DNA from: Firmicutes bacterium M10-2 | GTDB lineage: Bacteria > Bacillota_I > Bacilli_A > Erysipelotrichales > Erysipelotrichaceae | Assembly: GCA_000403415.2 (NCBI GenBank) | Contig: KE159699.1 | Location: 1-52,937, forward strand | Length of the DNA: 52,937 nt | Reading direction: 5' to 3' | Part shown: positions 33,099 to 44,714 of the stretch, one piece after another | Position numbering within the stretch: position 1 is the first letter of the stretch | Layout of the letters: each line of letters begins with the position of its first letter | Notes under the pieces: model-generated | Seen by the model: only the letters and a program-made list of their open reading frames with translations | What the model was told of the DNA's origin: nothing | Database searches by the model: none | Translations under genes and position numbers: made by a program

Positions 33099-33470
33099 AT
33101 GAAAGTTTCCCACTTAACCAAGCGTGAAAATGAGATCATGGAGATCTTCTGGCGATCAGAAAAGCCGTTGTCTTCAAATGATATCTGCTTGGAAGCCCCA
33201 CACATAAGTAAGAACACAGTACAGGCCGTGATCAGAAAGCTGCTCTCGATGAACTTCATCGAGATCGCAGGGCTAGGCTACAACAAAAACGCCTTGACCC
33301 GCGAGTTCAGCCCATGCATCTCTCAGGCAGAGTACTTTGACAACTTTCTTGTGCGGGATACTTCCTATGAATTGGCTGCGAATTTTATTCGCCAAGCTGA
33401 AGATATCGCAACACTCGAACAAATCGAGGCTTTGATTGCTGAACGAAAAGAAGCGCTACAAGCTGCTTAG
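33099..33470 (+). CDS. Orphan BlaI/MecI/CopY-family repressor
   Basis: 123 residues, paralogous to the protein at 22543: the N-terminal winged helix (TKRENEIMEIFWRSEKPLSSNDI) and the ALTREFSPCISQAEYF block align closely. There is no M56 protease gene beside it, so it may answer to the protease at 22.9 kb or regulate on its own. RBS AGAGAGGT. Its terminator was the target of a 191-bp element. Confidence 0.85.
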   Translation: MKVSHLTKRENEIMEIFWRSEKPLSSNDICLEAPHISKNTVQAVIRKLLSMNFIEIAGLGYNKNALTREFSPCISQAEYFDNFLVRDTSYELAANFIRQAEDIATLEQIEALIAERKEALQAA

Positions 33471-33485
33471 TGAAGCAGAACATGA

Positions 33486-33509
33486 AAAACTCCGTAAAAG
33501 CGGAGTTTT
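33486..33509 (+). terminator. Terminator hairpin of the orphan blaI gene, left copy
   Basis: Exact 24-bp hairpin: 9-bp stem AAAACTCCG / CGGAGTTTT with loop TAAAAG. Repeated identically at 33701-33724, so it is the target duplication; the U-tract is now on the other copy. Confidence 0.88.
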
Positions 33510-33700
33510 CAGAGTGTTGACAAACTACCTATTTTGAAAAAATTAAATTTCAATAAAATAAAAGTGGGTAAAAAGGTCTAAAAAAAGAGTAATATTAGGT
33601 ACTTAAATACCTCAAATTGCTCTTTTTTTATTCATTTGTGGGAGAAAAATAAAAAGCTGTGACAAAGCCGATTTGAAAAATCGACTTTGTCAACAGCCTG
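33510..33700. mobile_element. 191-bp non-autonomous IS1182-type element, copy 2
   Basis: Identical in sequence to the copy at 20304-20494 and in the same orientation on the plus strand. Here blaI transcription enters from the left end and would first meet the duplicated host hairpin and then the internal bidirectional hairpin (about 33580-33629). Target duplication 24 bp. Confidence 0.92.
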
Positions 33701-33728
33701 AAAACTCCGTAAAAGCGGAGTTTTTTTT
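33701..33728 (+). terminator. Terminator hairpin of the orphan blaI gene, right copy with U-tract
   Basis: Same 24-bp hairpin, followed by four more T's and so retaining a complete U-tract (eight T's in a row). Confidence 0.88.
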
Positions 33729-33782
33729 GCGTTGTTTCTTTTAGTGAATGTCATAATCTTCTTGCGACAGGTTTTGAAAAAT

Positions 33783-33804
33783 TTGTCATTTTATCCTGTG
33801 CCAA
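33783..33804 (+). promoter_or_regulatory. Possible MtlR binding site upstream of the mtl operon
   Basis: TTGTCATTT and TGTGCCAA separated by 5 bp resemble the known MtlR box TTGNCACAA-N4-TGTGNCAA; the right half fits fully, the left half only in TTGTCA, and the spacing is one longer. It lies about 85 bp before mtlA, where an activator site is expected. A -10 such as TATCAT at 33846 could follow. Confidence 0.4.
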
Positions 33805-33887
33805 ACAAAAATAAGAAAAGATAGAAATATTATAAAACCTTACGTATCATAAAGGTGTCAAAAAACTTATGAAGAAAGGAAAAATTT

Positions 33888-35246
33888 ATGAAAGAAAAGG
33901 TTCAAAAACTCGGGCGTGCCCTTTCTGCAATGGTCATGCCAAATATTTCAATCTTTATCGCATGGGGACTGATTACTGCCTTGTTTATTCCGGACGGATG
34001 GTTTCCGAACCCAACAGTGAATGAAATTGTAGCCCCGATGCAGCGTTTCCTGCTGCCGCTATTGATTGCTTATTCGGGCGGAAAGATGATCTACGATCAC
34101 CGAGGAGGAATTATAGGAGCTTGCTTTGCGATCGGAATCATTGCCGGAACCGAAACACCAATGTTTATCGGTGCCATGATTGCCGGGCCGCTTGGTGGCT
34201 ATCTCATGAAAAAAGTCGATCAGATCTTAGACGGACATGTGCCAAACGGTTTTGAAATGCTTGTCAATAATTTCTCAGCCGGAATTCTCGGCGCATTGCT
34301 TGCGATCATGGGCTGTCTGCTGATCGAACCCGCATGTGTTGCTTTGACTTCTGCTCTTTCAAGCGGTGTTGAGTTTCTGGTAAACCACGGATTGCTTCCG
34401 CTTACATCAATCTTGGTAGAACCGGCAAAAATTCTTTTCCTTAACAATGCACTCAATCACGGAATTTTCACGCCGCTCGGTATGGAACAAGTGCAGGAAG
34501 TCGGAAAATCGATTTTCTTTATGATTGAAGCCAATCCCGGACCCGGGCTTGGATTGCTCATTGCTTATTTCTTTTGCACAAAAGGAGATGTGAAAGAATC
34601 TTCTTTGTCGGCAATGATCATTGAGTTTCTCGGAGGAATTCATGAAATTTACTTCCCATTCGTATTGATGAACCCGATTACGTTGGTTGGCGTTATTGCC
34701 GGAGGAATGACCGGAGTGTTGGTCAATACGATTTTCGGATCCGGACTAGTATCGGCTGCCTCTCCCGGATCGATCATTGCCATACTTGGAATGTGTGCGA
34801 AAGACAGTTATATCGGTATTCTGTTATCGATTGCTGCCGCCACTGCCGTATCTGCGATCGTGAACATCGTCTTGTTGAAAGCATTCTCGAAAGAAGGAAA
34901 TCTGGAAGAAGCAAAAAAACAAGTGACAGCCGCGAAAACAGTCCATGCTGCTGCACCGGTTGCCATGACTAATTTGAAAATTGTATTTGCCTGCGATGCC
35001 GGAATGGGAAGCAGTGCGATGGGCGCAGCCAACTTAACGAAAAAATTAAAAAATGCCGGGATCGATCTGCATGTTCCGCATTACGCGCTGAACGAAGTGC
35101 CAAAAGATACGCAAGTGATCGTGACGCAGACATCTCTTGTCGAAAGAGCGAAAAACCGTTGTCCGAACGCGAAAATCTATCCGATCAACAACTTCATGAG
35201 CACAAGCGAATATGACAAAATTGTCAGTGAATTGGTAGGAGCCTAA
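33888..35246 (+). CDS. mtlA: PTS mannitol-type transporter subunit IICB
   Basis: 452 residues. The IIC membrane domain (about 1-335) contains GGIHEIYFP (249-257), the substrate-loop motif of mannitol permeases, and NHGIFTPLG. The IIB domain (about 360-452) has the phospho-Cys369 in ACDAGMGSSAMG. It takes up and phosphorylates a hexitol-like sugar with phosphate from the EIIA encoded two genes on. The substrate is open, since mtlD is missing and a SorE-like dehydrogenase and a PfkB kinase occupy its place. The stop overlaps the mtlR ATG (TAATG). Confidence 0.92.
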   Translation: MKEKVQKLGRALSAMVMPNISIFIAWGLITALFIPDGWFPNPTVNEIVAPMQRFLLPLLIAYSGGKMIYDHRGGIIGACFAIGIIAGTETPMFIGAMIAGPLGGYLMKKVDQILDGHVPNGFEMLVNNFSAGILGALLAIMGCLLIEPACVALTSALSSGVEFLVNHGLLPLTSILVEPAKILFLNNALNHGIFTPLGMEQVQEVGKSIFFMIEANPGPGLGLLIAYFFCTKGDVKESSLSAMIIEFLGGIHEIYFPFVLMNPITLVGVIAGGMTGVLVNTIFGSGLVSAASPGSIIAILGMCAKDSYIGILLSIAAATAVSAIVNIVLLKAFSKEGNLEEAKKQVTAAKTVHAAAPVAMTNLKIVFACDAGMGSSAMGAANLTKKLKNAGIDLHVPHYALNEVPKDTQVIVTQTSLVERAKNRCPNAKIYPINNFMSTSEYDKIVSELVGA

Positions 35247-37282
35247 TGATCTATACCAATCGATTTCAACAAATCTTGAAGATTGCTCTTGAACAAGATG
35301 AAGAATATATTTCAATTGATGCGTTATCTAAACGATTGAAAACTTCCCGGAGGACAATCTTTCGAGAACTGCAAAATGCGAATTTAAGACCTTACGATTT
35401 ACAATTGGTCAGCAAACAAGGAAAAGGAATTCGACTGGAAGGCGAAAAAAACAACAAACAGCGCTTGTTGGCTGCCTTGGAAACAGAGAGCATTCCTTAT
35501 CTGAATAAGGAAGAACGAAGAAAGCTTCTCGCGTTCGAGCTTCTTCGCTTTCCGGAAGTCAAAAAACTCGTCTATTACGGGAATATGTTTTCGGTTTCGG
35601 AAACAACCATTTCTAACGATCTGGATGCGCTCGAGCCTTGGCTTTCATCGTATGCGATCTGCTTGGATCGCAAAAACAAAAATAAGATCCGGATTTTCGG
35701 GAAAGAAGAAGATCGCCGTAAAGCAATGAGCGAAATTATTCATGATACGATCGGAGCAAAAGAAGCGGCTATTGATTATCTCGATCCGAAAGCGTTGCAA
35801 AAGGAAATTTTCGAATCAAGTCAGGAAGGGATCCTCCAATTGCTCAATCAGGAACTGCTCGGCTCGATTTTAGATTTATTCACCTTGGAAAGAAAAGAAT
35901 TGGGCTTGGATCAATACGTGCAAAGCTCTTATATCGGACTGATCATTCACTTAGTTGTTGCGATTGAGCGAATTAAAAAGGGCCAGCCTATTGAAAGCGA
36001 TCCAAGCTTGTATGAAGAAATGGCCCATACATCCAACATGGTCCAAGCGCAAAAAATTGCCAAACGAATCGAGCAGATATTTGATATACAAATGCCGCAA
36101 GCTGAAATCGTTTTTATCGCAATGCATTTGCGCGGAGCCAAAAGTATCAATCCTACAGAGGGTGGCGAAGATAAAAAGATCATGGAAGTCGTGTATTGCT
36201 TCATTGAGGATTTTCCAAACGCAATTGCTTCGTGTTTGTCGACCGATCCTCAGTTTATCGAAGGGTTTGTCACTCATTTAAGACCGACCTTGATTCGTCT
36301 TAATCGGTCGTTACCTATTTATAATCCGTTGCTTGATACAATCAAGACACAGTACAAAGAACTTTATGAATTAACACTTCATGCCGCAAAACATATCGAG
36401 AAAATTGCGAAGGTTTCGATTTCGGAAGCCGAAATCGCTTTTATGACTATGCATGTGGGGGCATCGTTGGAAAGAAGGCGTTCGGAAGCCAGACAAACAA
36501 AGCTGCATACCGGTGTGGTTTGTGCTTCCGGAATCGGTGTATCGGCTTTGCTAAGTGCAAGACTGCAATATGTGTTCGGAAACCGGCTTATTTTAGAAAC
36601 ACTTTCTTTAGAACAATATAAGGACCGATTCGAACAATTTGATTTGATTATTTCAACGTTCGATATGGCGGAGAAAGAAACAAAAATCATAAAGGTCAAT
36701 CCGCTGCTTTCACAACAAGATATCGATCGAATCCGTGAAGTGATTGAAGAAATTCATCAATCGGCCCATTTCGATCAAGAAGACGGTGCAATGGAAAAGC
36801 TTAAAAGAATCGAAAAAATGAGTGAAAGCGCAAGACATATCATTGACGATCTTGTATTCGTCACAGTACCATCTCAAATGGATCTTTCACAGCTCATCGA
36901 AGAAGCAAGCGTTCTTGCGAAAGGGTCGCCAAGTCAGATCGTAAAAGATCTGCATCGAAGAGAAGAGCTTGGCTCAATTTTGATTCCCGAACTGGGTTTT
37001 GGTTTGCTACATACGAAAACGACAGGGATAGAAAAACCGCAAGTTCAATTTCTATGGCCGGACCAACAATATTTTACTCAATATGAAAACATTGAAGTGG
37101 TATTTGTTCTGTTGCTGCCTTATGAGGCAAATTCTTATGACCAGAAACTGTTATCACTGATCAGCACGCATATGATGGAAGATGATCGTTTGCGGGAAGC
37201 TGTATTTGCTCATGAAGAGCGACACATCCAGCAAGTGCTCTCTTCAATATATTTACAATCAATTCATGCCGAAATGGCGTAG
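35246..37282 (+). CDS. mtlR: MtlR-type PTS-regulated transcriptional activator
   Basis: 678 residues in the standard MtlR order: N-terminal HTH domains (ISIDALSKRLKTSRRTIFREL, and a second one near 115), two PRDs with their regulatory histidines (IVFIAMHLRGAK about 290-300, IAFMTMHVGASLERR about 390-405), an EIIB-like domain with Cys in VVCASGIGVSALL, and a C-terminal EIIA-like domain with His in GFGLLHTKT. PTS-dependent phosphorylation of these sites switches activity in Bacillota. It lies inside the operon it presumably activates. Confidence 0.9.
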   Translation: MIYTNRFQQILKIALEQDEEYISIDALSKRLKTSRRTIFRELQNANLRPYDLQLVSKQGKGIRLEGEKNNKQRLLAALETESIPYLNKEERRKLLAFELLRFPEVKKLVYYGNMFSVSETTISNDLDALEPWLSSYAICLDRKNKNKIRIFGKEEDRRKAMSEIIHDTIGAKEAAIDYLDPKALQKEIFESSQEGILQLLNQELLGSILDLFTLERKELGLDQYVQSSYIGLIIHLVVAIERIKKGQPIESDPSLYEEMAHTSNMVQAQKIAKRIEQIFDIQMPQAEIVFIAMHLRGAKSINPTEGGEDKKIMEVVYCFIEDFPNAIASCLSTDPQFIEGFVTHLRPTLIRLNRSLPIYNPLLDTIKTQYKELYELTLHAAKHIEKIAKVSISEAEIAFMTMHVGASLERRRSEARQTKLHTGVVCASGIGVSALLSARLQYVFGNRLILETLSLEQYKDRFEQFDLIISTFDMAEKETKIIKVNPLLSQQDIDRIREVIEEIHQSAHFDQEDGAMEKLKRIEKMSESARHIIDDLVFVTVPSQMDLSQLIEEASVLAKGSPSQIVKDLHRREELGSILIPELGFGLLHTKTTGIEKPQVQFLWPDQQYFTQYENIEVVFVLLLPYEANSYDQKLLSLISTHMMEDDRLREAVFAHEERHIQQVLSSIYLQSIHAEMA

Positions 37283-37294
37283 AAAGGAAAAAAC

Positions 37295-37765
37295 ATGGCA
37301 TTCTTTAAGAAGAAGAAAAAAGAAAAAGCGAAAAAACCGCAAATTTTAAAAGTAGAAAACATCCGCATCAATCAGCAGGCTGCCTCCAGCGATGAGGCTA
37401 TCGTTCGAGTAGGAAACGCATTGAAAGATGCAGGATATATCGAAGAAGGATATATTCAGGGGATGTTGAATCGCGATCACAATTTGACAACGTATATTGG
37501 CAATGATATCGCCATTCCGCACGGAGAATACGAAGTCAAAGATTGTGTGAAACAAACAGGTCTTGCAGTGGATATTTATCCGGATGGTATTGCCTGGGGA
37601 GGCGGAATTGTTCGCATTGTGATCGGAATTGCCGCGACCACGGATGAGCACATTACAATACTCCAGAATATTGCCGAACAACTAGGGGATATGGATGTAG
37701 TGGAACAAGTTGTCAAAGGCTCACCGGAATTTATTCATTCGGTACTGACCGGAGGTGCGGCATGA
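37295..37765 (+). CDS. mtlF: PTS mannitol-type EIIA component
   Basis: 156 residues. A lysine-rich start (KKKKKEKAKK) precedes a standard EIIA-Mtl/Fru fold with the phospho-His76 in GNDIAIPHGE and the ITILQNIAEQLGD segment. It passes phosphate from HPr to the IIB domain of the mtlA product. RBS AAAGGAAA. Overlaps the pfkB-type gene by 4 bp. Confidence 0.92.
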   Translation: MAFFKKKKKEKAKKPQILKVENIRINQQAASSDEAIVRVGNALKDAGYIEEGYIQGMLNRDHNLTTYIGNDIAIPHGEYEVKDCVKQTGLAVDIYPDGIAWGGGIVRIVIGIAATTDEHITILQNIAEQLGDMDVVEQVVKGSPEFIHSVLTGGAA

Positions 37766-38697
37766 TCTTGACGGTTACGTTCAATCCGGCAATCGATAAG
37801 ACCGCTCAAGTGGATGAGCTGATTGTAGGAGGACTGAATCGTTTGAGAAATGTTCGCCAAGATGCCGGAGGAAAAGGTGTCAATGTGTCCAAAACGATTA
37901 GGACGCTTGGCTATGAAAGTTTTGCGACCGGATTTTTAGGGGGAGCAAGTGGTCGGATGATTTCCGATACTCTTGATCAAATGAATATTAAAAATGAGTT
38001 TATTTGGGTAGATGGAAATACGCGGACCAATTTAAAAGTGCTCAACAAAGAAATGGTTTTAACTGAGCTCAACGAGGCAGGACCGACCATTCATGAAGAA
38101 GATATTGAGCGTTTGATTGCATTGATCAGAAATTATGCACAAGGAAACTGTTATGTAGTACTTTCGGGAAATGTTTCGCCAGGCGTTTCAAACGATATTT
38201 ACAAGCGAATGATTGAACGTTTCAAAAAAGATGGGATCCACGTGCTTTTAGATGCAGATGGGGAACTTTTCAAAGAAGGAATCAAAGCCAGACCGGAAGC
38301 AATCAAGCCAAACCGATTTGAATTGGCACAATATTACGGAGTCGAAGAGCCGAAAACAATGGAAGAAACGGCAAAACTGGGAGAAAAACTGCTTAATGAG
38401 GAAACAAAACTTGTAGCAATTTCAATGGGTGGCGAAGGAGCTCTTTTCTTAACAAAAGAAAAGATGTTGTATTGTCCGGTATTGAAGATCGATTTGAATT
38501 CAAGTGTGGGAGCTGGCGATGCGATGGTTGCGGCAATGGCTGTTGCTTTAGAACAAGAAGCGGAGCTTGAACAACTTGCGATATTGGCAATGGCCACAAG
38601 TGCGGGTGCGTGCACAACGCAAGGAACTCAGCCAGCTCGTTATGAAGTGATTGAACAATTAAAAGAAATCGTAAAGATAGAGTATTTGAAAGGATAA
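37762..38697 (+). CDS. PfkB-family sugar-phosphate kinase (1-phosphofructokinase/tagatose-6-phosphate kinase type)
   Basis: 311 residues. N-terminal TFNPAIDKT and GGKGVNVSKTI and the C-terminal anion-hole motif SSVGAGDAMVAAM with the catalytic Asp are diagnostic for the FruK/LacC branch. It would phosphorylate a ketohexose phosphate to the bisphosphate. A plain mannitol operon has no need for it because mannitol-1-P becomes fructose-6-P, so its presence hints at another polyol or ketose as substrate (inference). Confidence 0.85.
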   Translation: MILTVTFNPAIDKTAQVDELIVGGLNRLRNVRQDAGGKGVNVSKTIRTLGYESFATGFLGGASGRMISDTLDQMNIKNEFIWVDGNTRTNLKVLNKEMVLTELNEAGPTIHEEDIERLIALIRNYAQGNCYVVLSGNVSPGVSNDIYKRMIERFKKDGIHVLLDADGELFKEGIKARPEAIKPNRFELAQYYGVEEPKTMEETAKLGEKLLNEETKLVAISMGGEGALFLTKEKMLYCPVLKIDLNSSVGAGDAMVAAMAVALEQEAELEQLAILAMATSAGACTTQGTQPARYEVIEQLKEIVKIEYLKG

Positions 38698-38701
38698 AGA
38701 T

Positions 38702-39952
38702 ATGAAAACAAAAGCAGTACGCCTGTATGGAGTAAATGATATTCGTTTGGAAGAATTCGAGCTTCCGGAAATCAAAGAGGATGAAATTTTAGTGAAGGTT
38801 GTTTCGGATTCGATTTGTATGTCGACTTATAAAACGGTAAAGCAAGGAGCGAAACATAAACGGGTACCCAATGATGTATACGATCATCCGATTATTATCG
38901 GGCATGAATTTGCCGGCGATATTGTCAAAGTAGGGAAAAAGTGGCAGGATCAGTTCAAACCGGGACAAAAATTTGCCCAGCAGCCGGCTATTCCGGGACA
39001 AATGGAATCTCCGGGATATTCATATGAATGGTGTGGGGGAGATACGCAATATTGTATTTTCCCGAACGATATCATTGAAGCGGGATGCTTGTGGACATTT
39101 GATGGGGATGCTTATTTTGCAAGTTCGGTAGCAGAACCGGTTTCCTGCTGCATCGGAGGCTATCATACAAATTATCATACAGTTCCGGGAGAATATACGC
39201 ATATAATGGGAACGAAAGAAGGCGGAGATATCATTATTCTTGGCGGATGCGGTCCGATGGGGCTTGGTGCGATTTCTTACGGGCTGACATTTGAAAACAA
39301 ACCGAAACGGATCGTAGTCACAGAAGTGAATGATGATCGTATCGCAAGAGCTCGTGAAGTAATCAGTGAAGAAGAAGCCGCCGAACATGGTGTGGAACTG
39401 ATTTATGTCAATACAGCGAAGATGAAAGATCAAGTGCAAGAATTGATGGACATTACAGATGGCAAAGGATATGATGACGTTTTTATCTATGTTCCGAATC
39501 AGGCAGTTTGTGAAATCGGAAATCAGATTATGGCATACGATGGCTGCATGAACTTGTTTGCCGGACCGACTGATCCGAAATTCTCGGCCAATATGAACTT
39601 GTATGATTGCCATTATTCCAGAAGCAAGATCATTGGATCGACGGGTGGCACGATTGATGATATGAAAGAGGCAATCAATAAAAACAATGCAGGATTGATC
39701 AATTCGGCAGTTATGATCACCCATGTAGGGGGATTGGATTCAGTCGTGGAAACAACGAAAAATCTTCCGAATGTACCGGGAGGGAAGAAGCTGGTATATA
39801 CGCATATCAACATGCCGATGACTGCGATCGAAGATTTCGAAAAACTCGGAGAAACAGATCCTTTCTTTAAGGAATTGGATAAAGTATGCAAGGCGAATAA
39901 AGGCTTGTGGTCTGCGCAGGCAGAAAAGATGTTATTGGAGCATTTTGCATAA
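38702..39952 (+). CDS. Zinc-binding dehydrogenase, L-sorbose-1-phosphate-reductase-like (MDR family)
   Basis: 416 residues of the medium-chain dehydrogenase/reductase superfamily. Catalytic-zinc region DSICMSTYK and IIGHEFAGDI with a Cys and His-Glu pair, and a Rossmann motif IILGGCGPMGLGA. From memory it is closest in style to SorE-type sugar-phosphate reductases, with unusually long insertions (GQMESPGYSYEWCGGDTQYC). It probably oxidises or reduces the phosphorylated sugar imported by the PTS, in place of the MtlD enzyme. RBS AAAGGATAAAG. Followed by a strong terminator ending the operon. Confidence 0.75.
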   Translation: MKTKAVRLYGVNDIRLEEFELPEIKEDEILVKVVSDSICMSTYKTVKQGAKHKRVPNDVYDHPIIIGHEFAGDIVKVGKKWQDQFKPGQKFAQQPAIPGQMESPGYSYEWCGGDTQYCIFPNDIIEAGCLWTFDGDAYFASSVAEPVSCCIGGYHTNYHTVPGEYTHIMGTKEGGDIIILGGCGPMGLGAISYGLTFENKPKRIVVTEVNDDRIARAREVISEEEAAEHGVELIYVNTAKMKDQVQELMDITDGKGYDDVFIYVPNQAVCEIGNQIMAYDGCMNLFAGPTDPKFSANMNLYDCHYSRSKIIGSTGGTIDDMKEAINKNNAGLINSAVMITHVGGLDSVVETTKNLPNVPGGKKLVYTHINMPMTAIEDFEKLGETDPFFKELDKVCKANKGLWSAQAEKMLLEHFA

Positions 39953-39968
39953 AACAACAGATAAAAGA

Positions 39969-40018
39969 CTTTCGGTTTATTCGCTATAGCCATGCGATAA
40001 ACCGAAAGCCTTTTTTTA
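39969..40018 (+). terminator. mtl-operon terminator
   Basis: Long stem with CTTTCGGTTTAT paired to ATAAACCGAAAG and a T-run (TTTTTTT) after it. The stretch 40019-40120 contains nothing else I recognise. Confidence 0.9.
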
Positions 40019-41249: not shown

Positions 41250-41633
41250 GAAAAAGGAAAGGACGATTGGACCATATTAATCCTTCCGGGAGGATATGGT
41301 GCTGTAGAAGAAATGAAAAAAAGCAAAATACTTTGTGAGCGATTACGTGAACGAAACAGCCAAGGAAAACGGATTGGAGTGATATGTTCGGGGACGCAAA
41401 TGCTTGAAGAATCGAATGTAATTAAGGGACGACGAGTTACAGGATATGAAAAATATTTAAAAAGCGGAATTTTTACAAGAGAAGTTGTTGAAATAGACGG
41501 AAATCTTATTACGAGTCAAGGACCGGCTACAGCGTATCCGTTCGCGTTTGCTTTGATTGAAGCAGCCAATATTGATACAAGCGAATTGCGTCAACGTCTA
41601 ATGTATACATTCGCGAATGCATGGCGACCATGA
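41250..41633 (+). pseudogene. 5'-truncated DJ-1/PfpI-family gene
   Basis: The frame opens after a TAA at 41247 and reads DDWTILILPGGYGAVEEM, then GVICSGTQMLEESNVIKGRR and LITSQGPATAYPFAFALIE. This is the nucleophile-elbow (ICSGT, Cys) and C-terminal half of a class-I glutamine-amidotransferase-like DJ-1/PfpI protein. About the first 60 residues are missing and no start with RBS is visible before the GGXG strand (the ATG at 41313 would delete more). Most likely a remnant left by deletion. Confidence 0.75.
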
Positions 41634-43534: not shown

Positions 43535-43628
43535 AGATAGATTCTTCATCTTTTTAAAATTATACAATCAAATGAAAGCAACAAAAAAGAAAAGTTGGAC
43601 TATAATGAATCCAAGGAGGAACATACAA

Positions 43629-44714
43629 ATGCTCAAAATAGGAATGCTAACAAGCGGGGGCGATTGTCAGGCACTGAACGCCACAATGCGCGCCATTTAT
43701 AAGTCCGTTCGTCATGCAGCCAATGAATCTGTTGAATTTTACGGATTCGAGGACGGATACAAAGGATTGATGTACGGAAAGTATCGTGTTCTGAAACAAG
43801 AAGACTTTAACGGAATCTTGACGATTGGAGGAACAATTTTAGGAACGAGTCGTGTTCCGTTCAAAAAAATTCGTAAGCCCGATGAAAACGGAATGGATAA
43901 AGTTAAAGCGATGAAAAGTACCTATCATAAATTAGGCCTGGATTGCCTCGTCGTTTTAGGAGGTAACGGATCGATCAAAACGGCCAATCTTCTTTCCGAA
44001 GAAGGATTGAATGTCGTTGCGATGCCAAAAACGATCGACAATGATTTATGGGGAACGGACATGACGTTTGGCTTCCAATCTGCAGTCGATATCGCAACAA
44101 GAGCCATTGACGAAATTCATACAACCGCAAGCAGCCACAAACGTGTGTTTATTGTCGAAATTATGGGTCATAAAACAGGATGGCTTCCGCTCAATGCCGG
44201 AATCGCCGGAGGAGCCGATATTATTTTGCTTCCGGAAATACCTTACGATCTTGATAAAATCATTGATGTGATCGAAAATAAAAAGACCACCAACATTAAT
44301 GGCGGACGTTTCATGATCCTAGCTGTTGCCGAAGGAGCCATTTCGAAGGAAGATGCTAAACTGTCGAAAAAAGAATATAAAGAGAAATTGAAAAATTCTC
44401 CGTATCCTTCGGTTTCTTATGAACTTGCAGCTCAAATTCAGGAAAGAACCGGAAGGGAAGTCCGCGTCACTGTTCCCGGACATACACAGCGCGGAGGAGC
44501 CCCGGACGCATATGATCGGGTCTTTGCCAGCCGTGTAGGCGCAGCCGGAGGAAAAATGATCGTTGAAGGCCAATATGGATATATGGTCGCCTATCGCAAT
44601 CGCGAAATGATTAAAGTTCCGCTCAAGGAAGCGGCCGGAAAACTGAAACTCGTAGATCCGAACGCAAACATTATCAAAGAAGCAAAATTGATCGGAATCA
44701 GCTTTGGTGACTAA
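43629..44714 (+). CDS. 6-phosphofructokinase family (PfkA superfamily) with unusual nucleotide-site residues
   Basis: 361 residues. LTSGGDCQALNATMRAIY at the start, GTSRVPF and the catalytic PKTIDND are diagnostic of PfkA-type enzymes. The loop normally GGDGS is GGNGS, and the position that is Gly in ATP-dependent E. coli PfkA (GTIDND) is Lys, as in PPi-type enzymes. By the usual residue rule, Gly at 104 favours ATP while Lys at 124 belongs to the PPi or mixed clade, so phosphoryl donor is uncertain. ATG chosen 9 bp after AGGAGG; in-frame ATGs upstream would include that RBS. Overlaps the next gene by 11 bp. Confidence 0.88.
   Translation: MLKIGMLTSGGDCQALNATMRAIYKSVRHAANESVEFYGFEDGYKGLMYGKYRVLKQEDFNGILTIGGTILGTSRVPFKKIRKPDENGMDKVKAMKSTYHKLGLDCLVVLGGNGSIKTANLLSEEGLNVVAMPKTIDNDLWGTDMTFGFQSAVDIATRAIDEIHTTASSHKRVFIVEIMGHKTGWLPLNAGIAGGADIILLPEIPYDLDKIIDVIENKKTTNINGGRFMILAVAEGAISKEDAKLSKKEYKEKLKNSPYPSVSYELAAQIQERTGREVRVTVPGHTQRGGAPDAYDRVFASRVGAAGGKMIVEGQYGYMVAYRNREMIKVPLKEAAGKLKLVDPNANIIKEAKLIGISFGD

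Follow-up and report, generated by a model that had tools for sequence, protein, structure and literature searches.

A mannitol-type PTS operon with a YggP/SorE-related dehydrogenase and a 1-phosphofructokinase-type kinase in place of mtlD: a proposed route through fructose-1-phosphate

Introduction

In the classical mtlA-mtlR-mtlF-mtlD operons of Firmicutes, the EIICB, the MtlR-type activator and the EIIA are accompanied by MtlD, which is also present in E. coli mtlADR. MtlD, a mannitol-1-phosphate 5-dehydrogenase, yields fructose-6-phosphate, which is handled by the housekeeping 6-phosphofructokinase (6-PFK). E. coli K-12 has in addition the cryptic mannitol cluster cmtB-cmtA-yggP-yggF-fumE-yggC (L111, 3070000-3082500), in which the genes for a mannitol-type EIICB and EIIA directly precede yggP. 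We found no established function of YggP or cmtAB in the open-access papers that we searched.

SorE proteins, which resemble the dehydrogenase described below, reduce L-sorbose-1-phosphate to D-sorbitol-6-phosphate by acting on the keto group beside the phosphorylated carbon (PMC12817954). Their genes are found in sorbose operons together with a mannose-type PTS and an SDR dehydrogenase. In the fructose operon fruBKA, 1-phosphofructokinase (1-PFK) converts fructose-1-phosphate, supplied by the fructose PTS, into fructose-1,6-bisphosphate. The nearest published idea to the one proposed here is the mannitol/sorbitol pathway of Haloarcula hispanica, where mannitol reaches glycolysis through fructose, fructose-1-phosphate and 1-PFK (PMC11519228). 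There, however, uptake is by an ABC transporter, and free mannitol is oxidised to fructose, which ketohexokinase then phosphorylates, so that neither a PTS nor a polyol phosphate is involved (PMC11519228).

We analysed a stretch of 52,937 nucleotides from Firmicutes bacterium M10-2 (the window), which carries an operon with the EIICB, MtlR-type activator and EIIA of the classical Firmicutes arrangement, in the same order. In the place of MtlD it encodes a zinc dehydrogenase together with a kinase of the 1-PFK type.

Results

A five-gene operon with a kinase and a dehydrogenase in place of mtlD

Five consecutive open reading frames (ORFs) occupy positions 33888-39952 of the forward strand, with overlaps or gaps of at most 13 bases. 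An earlier note on this DNA had given the same span and gene content, and the ORF check and profile scans showed both to be correct to the base. The features are as follows:

33740..33887, + strand: putative promoter/control region of the operon (sequence, consensus scan)
33888..35246, + strand: mtlA, mannitol-type PTS EIICB, 452 aa (TIGR00851, PRK15083)
35246..37282, + strand: mtlR-like transcription activator of the PRD type, 678 aa, EIIA-2 domain at the C-terminus (Pfam)
37295..37765, + strand: mtlF-like EIIA, 156 aa (PTS_EIIA_2, PRK15083)
37762..38697, + strand: 1-phosphofructokinase-family (PfkB) kinase, 311 aa (TIGR03828, nearest structures)
38702..39952, + strand: zinc MDR dehydrogenase related to YggP and SorE, 416 aa (ADH_N and ADH_zinc_N)
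about 39967..40016, + strand: intrinsic-terminator-like stem-loop and T run, 3' of the dehydrogenase gene (sequence reading)

The control region is bounded by a terminator-like hairpin (33700-33725) and the mtlA start. In a promoter scan of this region, sites were no more numerous than in shuffled sequences, and a scan for the CcpA cre consensus gave one match, at 34393 inside a gene, which is no more than chance. The operon closes at about 40016 with this hairpin and the seven T that follow it, and beyond lies a LacI-type regulator gene on the opposite strand. The nearest named homologues are from Erysipelotrichaceae. The arrangement is not due to chance, as it recurs in dozens of genomes.

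Two further elements were seen in the flanks. The hairpin gaaaaactccgtaaaagcggagtttt is present in two nearly identical copies (33485-33510 and 33700-33727), both between mtlA and a small regulator gene whose end is at 33470, and forms a repeated terminator-like element. Downstream, an ORF of 106 aa (41313-41633, + strand) matches the DJ-1/PfpI family only over the C-terminal half (profile positions 79-167 of 180) and is probably a truncated gene of that family.

The uptake genes are those of a mannitol-type PTS

The EIICB scored above both mtlA cut-offs (TIGR00851, 473.6 bits with a cut-off of 468.4; PRK15083, 597 with a cut-off of 589). Over the EIIC part it shares 57.7% identity with E. coli MtlA and 48.3% with CmtA, and the whole-genome search found a single copy of an MtlA-type EIIC. 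A sequence search for a solved structure of a mannitol EIIC domain found none. The free EIIA matches PTS_EIIA_2 with 100.6 bits and aligns with the PRK15083 IICBA profile over profile residues 487-624. The mtlR-like protein contains HTH_11, Mga, PRD and PTS_EIIA_2 domains (Pfam), and a gene of this kind also follows mtlA in the mtlD-type operons of Erysipelotrichaceae. Judged by these sequence comparisons, the uptake half of the operon is an ordinary mannitol PTS.

The kinase belongs with 1-phosphofructokinases

The kinase passed the TIGR03828 1-phosphofructokinase equivalog model narrowly (301.1 bits, cut-off 292) and reached 120 bits with the 6-phosphofructokinase II model. Its nearest solved structures are the fructose-1-phosphate kinases 2abq and 2jg5, and its identity to E. 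coli FruK is only 28%. We rejected tagatose-6-phosphate kinase LacC as an assignment (165 bits against the lacC cut-off of 409). Kinases of other such operons scored up to 344 bits with TIGR03828, while the one at L054, an operon of the same type as in the window, was under the cut-off with 256 bits. Two compared kinases from rearranged operons are about 33% identical to the one in the window and both exceed the 1-PFK cut-off.

The dehydrogenase is a zinc MDR enzyme related to YggP and SorE

The dehydrogenase has ADH_N and ADH_zinc_N domains and, among named proteins, is closest to E. coli YggP (48.7% identity), with annotated SorE further away at 43-44%. In the alignment, C39, H68, E69 and E145 fall on the positions of the residues that bind the catalytic zinc in MDR enzymes, and YggP and SorE share them. 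The predicted structure is a confident MDR fold (pLDDT 94.3), and the fold search with this model matched solved MDR enzymes with Z scores of 33-36 across about 310-330 residues; these matches are to generic MDR proteins and leave the substrate undecided. Galactitol-1-phosphate 5-dehydrogenase GatD was rejected as an assignment (31.7 bits against the NCBIfam cut-off of 550). In the dehydrogenase tree, three SorE proteins from sorbose-PTS operons lie across a branch with support 100 from the protein in the window. We propose that it is a mannitol-1-phosphate 2-dehydrogenase which forms fructose-1-phosphate. Dehydrogenases of this kind were also searched for in viral contigs, where none was found.

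The genome lacks MtlD and has a single 1-phosphofructokinase

The genome (2.4 Mb, 99.8% complete) was searched for MtlD with PF08125 and NF002652, and only uronate-type reductases matched. One of them (L001) is a tagaturonate reductase above its own cut-off. The other (L002) is fructuronate-reductase-like and lies among uronate genes next to a KDPG-aldolase-like gene. The earlier note had named an mtlD gene elsewhere, coregulated with the operon, as one finding that would count against its reading; these two Mannitol_dh_C proteins, neither of them MtlD, are all that the genome-wide search returned. The claim of the earlier note that a SorE-like dehydrogenase and a PfkB kinase stand in place of mtlD is supported. 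With MtlD, the catabolic half of the operon lacks what defines the classical mtl operon.

The operon kinase is the only 1-PFK above the TIGR03828 cut-off in the genome, and the dehydrogenase is the only one of the YggP/SorE kind. Two fructose-family EIICs are encoded, neither of them in a fruAK operon or next to a 1-PFK; one lies beside a large glycosidase-like gene (L108) and the other beside a KDPG-aldolase-like gene (L109), names that were read off the sequences rather than taken from an HMM scan. The genome also encodes a class II fructose-1,6-bisphosphate aldolase, and a separate 6-PFK gene is found in the window at 43572-44714, 3.6 kb from the operon.

The dehydrogenase and MtlD exchange behind the same transporter

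We compared 195 related genomes (Erysipelotrichaceae), of which 33 have an orthologue of the dehydrogenase (at least 50% identity). An MtlA-type EIIC (counted at 230 bits or more) is present in 52 of the 195. The dehydrogenase occurs without MtlD in 27 of these genomes, MtlD (counted at 280 bits or more) without the dehydrogenase in 23, and both together in two; no genome lacks both. The Fisher p value of this partition (8.5e-13) is descriptive, given the relatedness of the genomes and score thresholds that were chosen after looking at the data. Counting MtlD-like tandem pairs with weaker scores (226-271 bits) would add G101 and G127 to the genomes with both. Most mtlD operons of the family are arranged as mtlA-mtlR-EIIA-mtlD, and operons of the type in the window have pfkB and the dehydrogenase gene in the place of mtlD.

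In the EIIC tree the two partner types interleave, with at least seven changes between them. The EIICs of L055 and L056, partnered with the dehydrogenase, are nested in a mainly MtlD-partnered clade, and that of L103, partnered with MtlD, is nested in a dehydrogenase-partnered clade. Across these swaps the EIICs are 72-83% identical (L056/L089 75%, L055/L081 79%, L103/L058 83%), and transporters this close most likely share mannitol as their substrate. The pattern shows that mtlD and the pair of dehydrogenase and 1-PFK can take each other's place behind the same transporter.

The kinase gene lies in or next to 25 of the 27 dehydrogenase operons of the family with a recognisable MtlA and none of the 17 MtlD operons (p 2.5e-10, among related genomes and with score thresholds chosen after looking at the data). 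With named genomes included, the count is 65 of 80 dehydrogenase operons, again against 0 of 17. Ten genomes have no kinase at the dehydrogenase locus, and nine of them encode a 1-PFK elsewhere; in Roseburia porci no 1-PFK above the cut-off was found anywhere in the genome. Both counts suggest that the need for 1-PFK goes with the dehydrogenase and not with the transporter.

The genomic company of the dehydrogenase is nearly constant (MtlA-type EIIC, EIIA and 1-PFK), while the gene order varies. We observed three orders: mtlA-mtlR-EIIA-pfkB-dehydrogenase, pfkB divergent from dehydrogenase-DeoR-EIICBA, and DeoR divergent from pfkB-EIICBA-dehydrogenase. Since the module is kept through rearrangement, we argue that the four functions belong together. 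Among named Bacillota it occurs in Lachnospiraceae, [Clostridium] symbiosum, Anaerocolumna, Eubacterium barkeri, Caproiciproducens and Acetoanaerobium. It is also found in Treponema (Spirochaetota), Planctomycetes (Planctomycetota) and a Propionibacteriaceae bacterium.

Some loci depart from this picture. G011 (L050, C2:348000-362000) has a pfkB-EIICBA-dehydrogenase operon only a few kilobases from a canonical EIICBA-mtlD operon, and the EIICs of the two are only 44% identical to each other. For three mannitol-type EIICs on long branches (L104, L105 and L106), the neighbour is an oxidoreductase of the GFO/IDH/MocA type or an SDR and not MtlD, suggesting further polyol substrates. Dehydrogenases of the group that are encoded outside mtl operons have a branch of their own in the tree. 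Some lie beside genes of the 2-oxoacid-dehydrogenase E1/E2 type (L168 and, by sequence, L181) or beside a class II aldolase/SDR fusion gene (L188), and probably act on a different substrate. The EIIC family is thus not tied to one substrate everywhere, and the same is true of the dehydrogenase group.

Discussion

A proposed route from mannitol to fructose-1,6-bisphosphate

We consider it probable, from the comparisons above, that the operon serves mannitol catabolism via fructose-1-phosphate, with the MtlD step replaced by a two-enzyme route. Homology and the swap partners suggest that MtlA and EIIA would import D-mannitol as mannitol-1-phosphate. If the dehydrogenase keeps the regio- and stereochemistry of SorE, it would oxidise mannitol-1-phosphate at C2, beside the phosphate-bearing carbon, to D-fructose-1-phosphate. 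The operon kinase, going by its family, would convert this into fructose-1,6-bisphosphate, as in fruBKA, thereby bypassing fructose-6-phosphate and 6-PFK. The fructose-1-phosphate would come here from the oxidation of a polyol phosphate and not from a fructose PTS. The bisphosphate would be cleaved by the aldolase of the genome, and MtlR may switch the operon on with mannitol. The order of ketose phosphate, bisphosphate and aldolase suggested in the earlier note fits this scheme.

Seen from the phosphate end, D-glucitol-6-phosphate and D-mannitol-1-phosphate agree in configuration at C2, C3 and C4, and only C5 sets them apart. Since the part from the phosphorylated C1 to C4 is shared, SorE-type oxidation of mannitol-1-phosphate at C2 would yield D-fructose-1-phosphate, which is the substrate of 1-PFK. 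The presence of the kinase is then explained, because oxidation of the carbon beside the phosphate would give fructose-1-phosphate rather than fructose-6-phosphate. For a fructose-6-phosphate product no extra kinase would be needed, as a 6-PFK gene is already present nearby. Oxidation at C2 accounts for both enzymes and for their coupling, and no new sugar is required. Several observations count against the proposed route, namely the narrow pass of the kinase in the 1-PFK model, its low identity to FruK, the mtl-dehydrogenase operons without a kinase and the lack of any 1-PFK above the cut-off in Roseburia porci. Moreover, the two operons of G011 would be redundant if both were used for mannitol, and the distant mannitol-type EIICs beside other oxidoreductases mean that specificity for mannitol is not strict within the EIIC family.

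These last two observations would fit a transporter that imports another polyol (another hexitol, a pentitol, galactitol or D-glucitol), with the dehydrogenase and kinase leading to a different ketose bisphosphate. The name of one carrier of the module, Caproiciproducens galactitolivorans, points the same way, and a substrate other than mannitol was what the earlier note had suggested, on the grounds that a mannitol pathway needs only MtlD; our comparisons do not support that suggestion. We regard this as unlikely, and keep it mainly because the EIIC family and the dehydrogenase group are not bound to a single substrate. The EIIC in the window is close to E. coli MtlA, EIICs as similar as those of the swap pairs are partnered with either enzyme, and every sampled genome with MtlA has MtlD or this dehydrogenase, so that the two partition the MtlA genomes. 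In addition, the kinase fits 1-PFK and not tagatose-6-phosphate kinase, and the dehydrogenase is far under the GatD cut-off. D-glucitol-6-phosphate would give L-sorbose-1-phosphate, for which we know of no productive aldolase route.

The one-for-one replacement of MtlD would also agree with a dehydrogenase that acts on mannitol-1-phosphate but yields fructose-6-phosphate as MtlD does, and PfkB-family kinases include 6-phosphofructokinases, so the operon kinase could be an extra one. Such a function would leave unexplained why the kinase accompanies the dehydrogenase and never MtlD, and it disagrees with the kinase scores (301 bits for 1-PFK against 120 for 6-phosphofructokinase II), with the housekeeping 6-PFK already present and with SorE relatives acting beside the phosphate-bearing carbon; we find it improbable. 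Least probable is that the dehydrogenase runs reductively, as a ketose-1-phosphate reductase which disposes of fructose-1-phosphate or makes mannitol-1-phosphate. Its nearest relatives with a known role are indeed reductases (PMC12817954), but the gene belongs to an operon for uptake, alongside genes for EIICB, EIIA and an activator that responds to the PTS, and the dehydrogenase largely excludes the catabolic MtlD.

Relation to the described systems and meaning

The dehydrogenase shares about 44% identity and the catalytic-zinc residues with SorE, but unlike the sorbose operons, the operon in the window has a mannitol-type EIICB and no SDR. The pairing of mannitol-type EIICB and EIIA with a dehydrogenase of this kind is common to the E. 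coli cmt cluster, which has neither a PfkB-type kinase nor MtlR and carries a fructose-1,6-bisphosphatase gene instead of the kinase. Unlike the genome of the window, E. coli also has mtlAD and fruK. By sequence, cmtBA-yggP is a cryptic relative of the module.

We found no description of a route from mannitol-1-phosphate to fructose-1-phosphate in the open-access papers that we searched. On balance, though with less assurance than for this operon itself, we favour the broader view that this is an undescribed, widespread route in which mannitol-1-phosphate 2-dehydrogenase and 1-phosphofructokinase have repeatedly replaced mtlD, which also predicts an activity for the orphan E. coli YggP. Mannitol is a common dietary polyol, and a gut bacterium would here consume it by an unusual route without MtlD. 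If this holds, annotation based on mtlD would score about half of the sampled family's mannitol-PTS genomes as mannitol-negative and likewise miss many Lachnospiraceae, Clostridium, Treponema and Planctomycetes. The carbon would skip the steps of fructose-6-phosphate and 6-PFK, and intracellular fructose-1-phosphate would arise without fructose. Two poorly annotated protein groups, including YggP of the cmt cluster, would gain testable activities.

In Anaerostipes (L121 and L122), we observed three paralogous copies of the dehydrogenase gene close together beside a mannitol-type EIIC.
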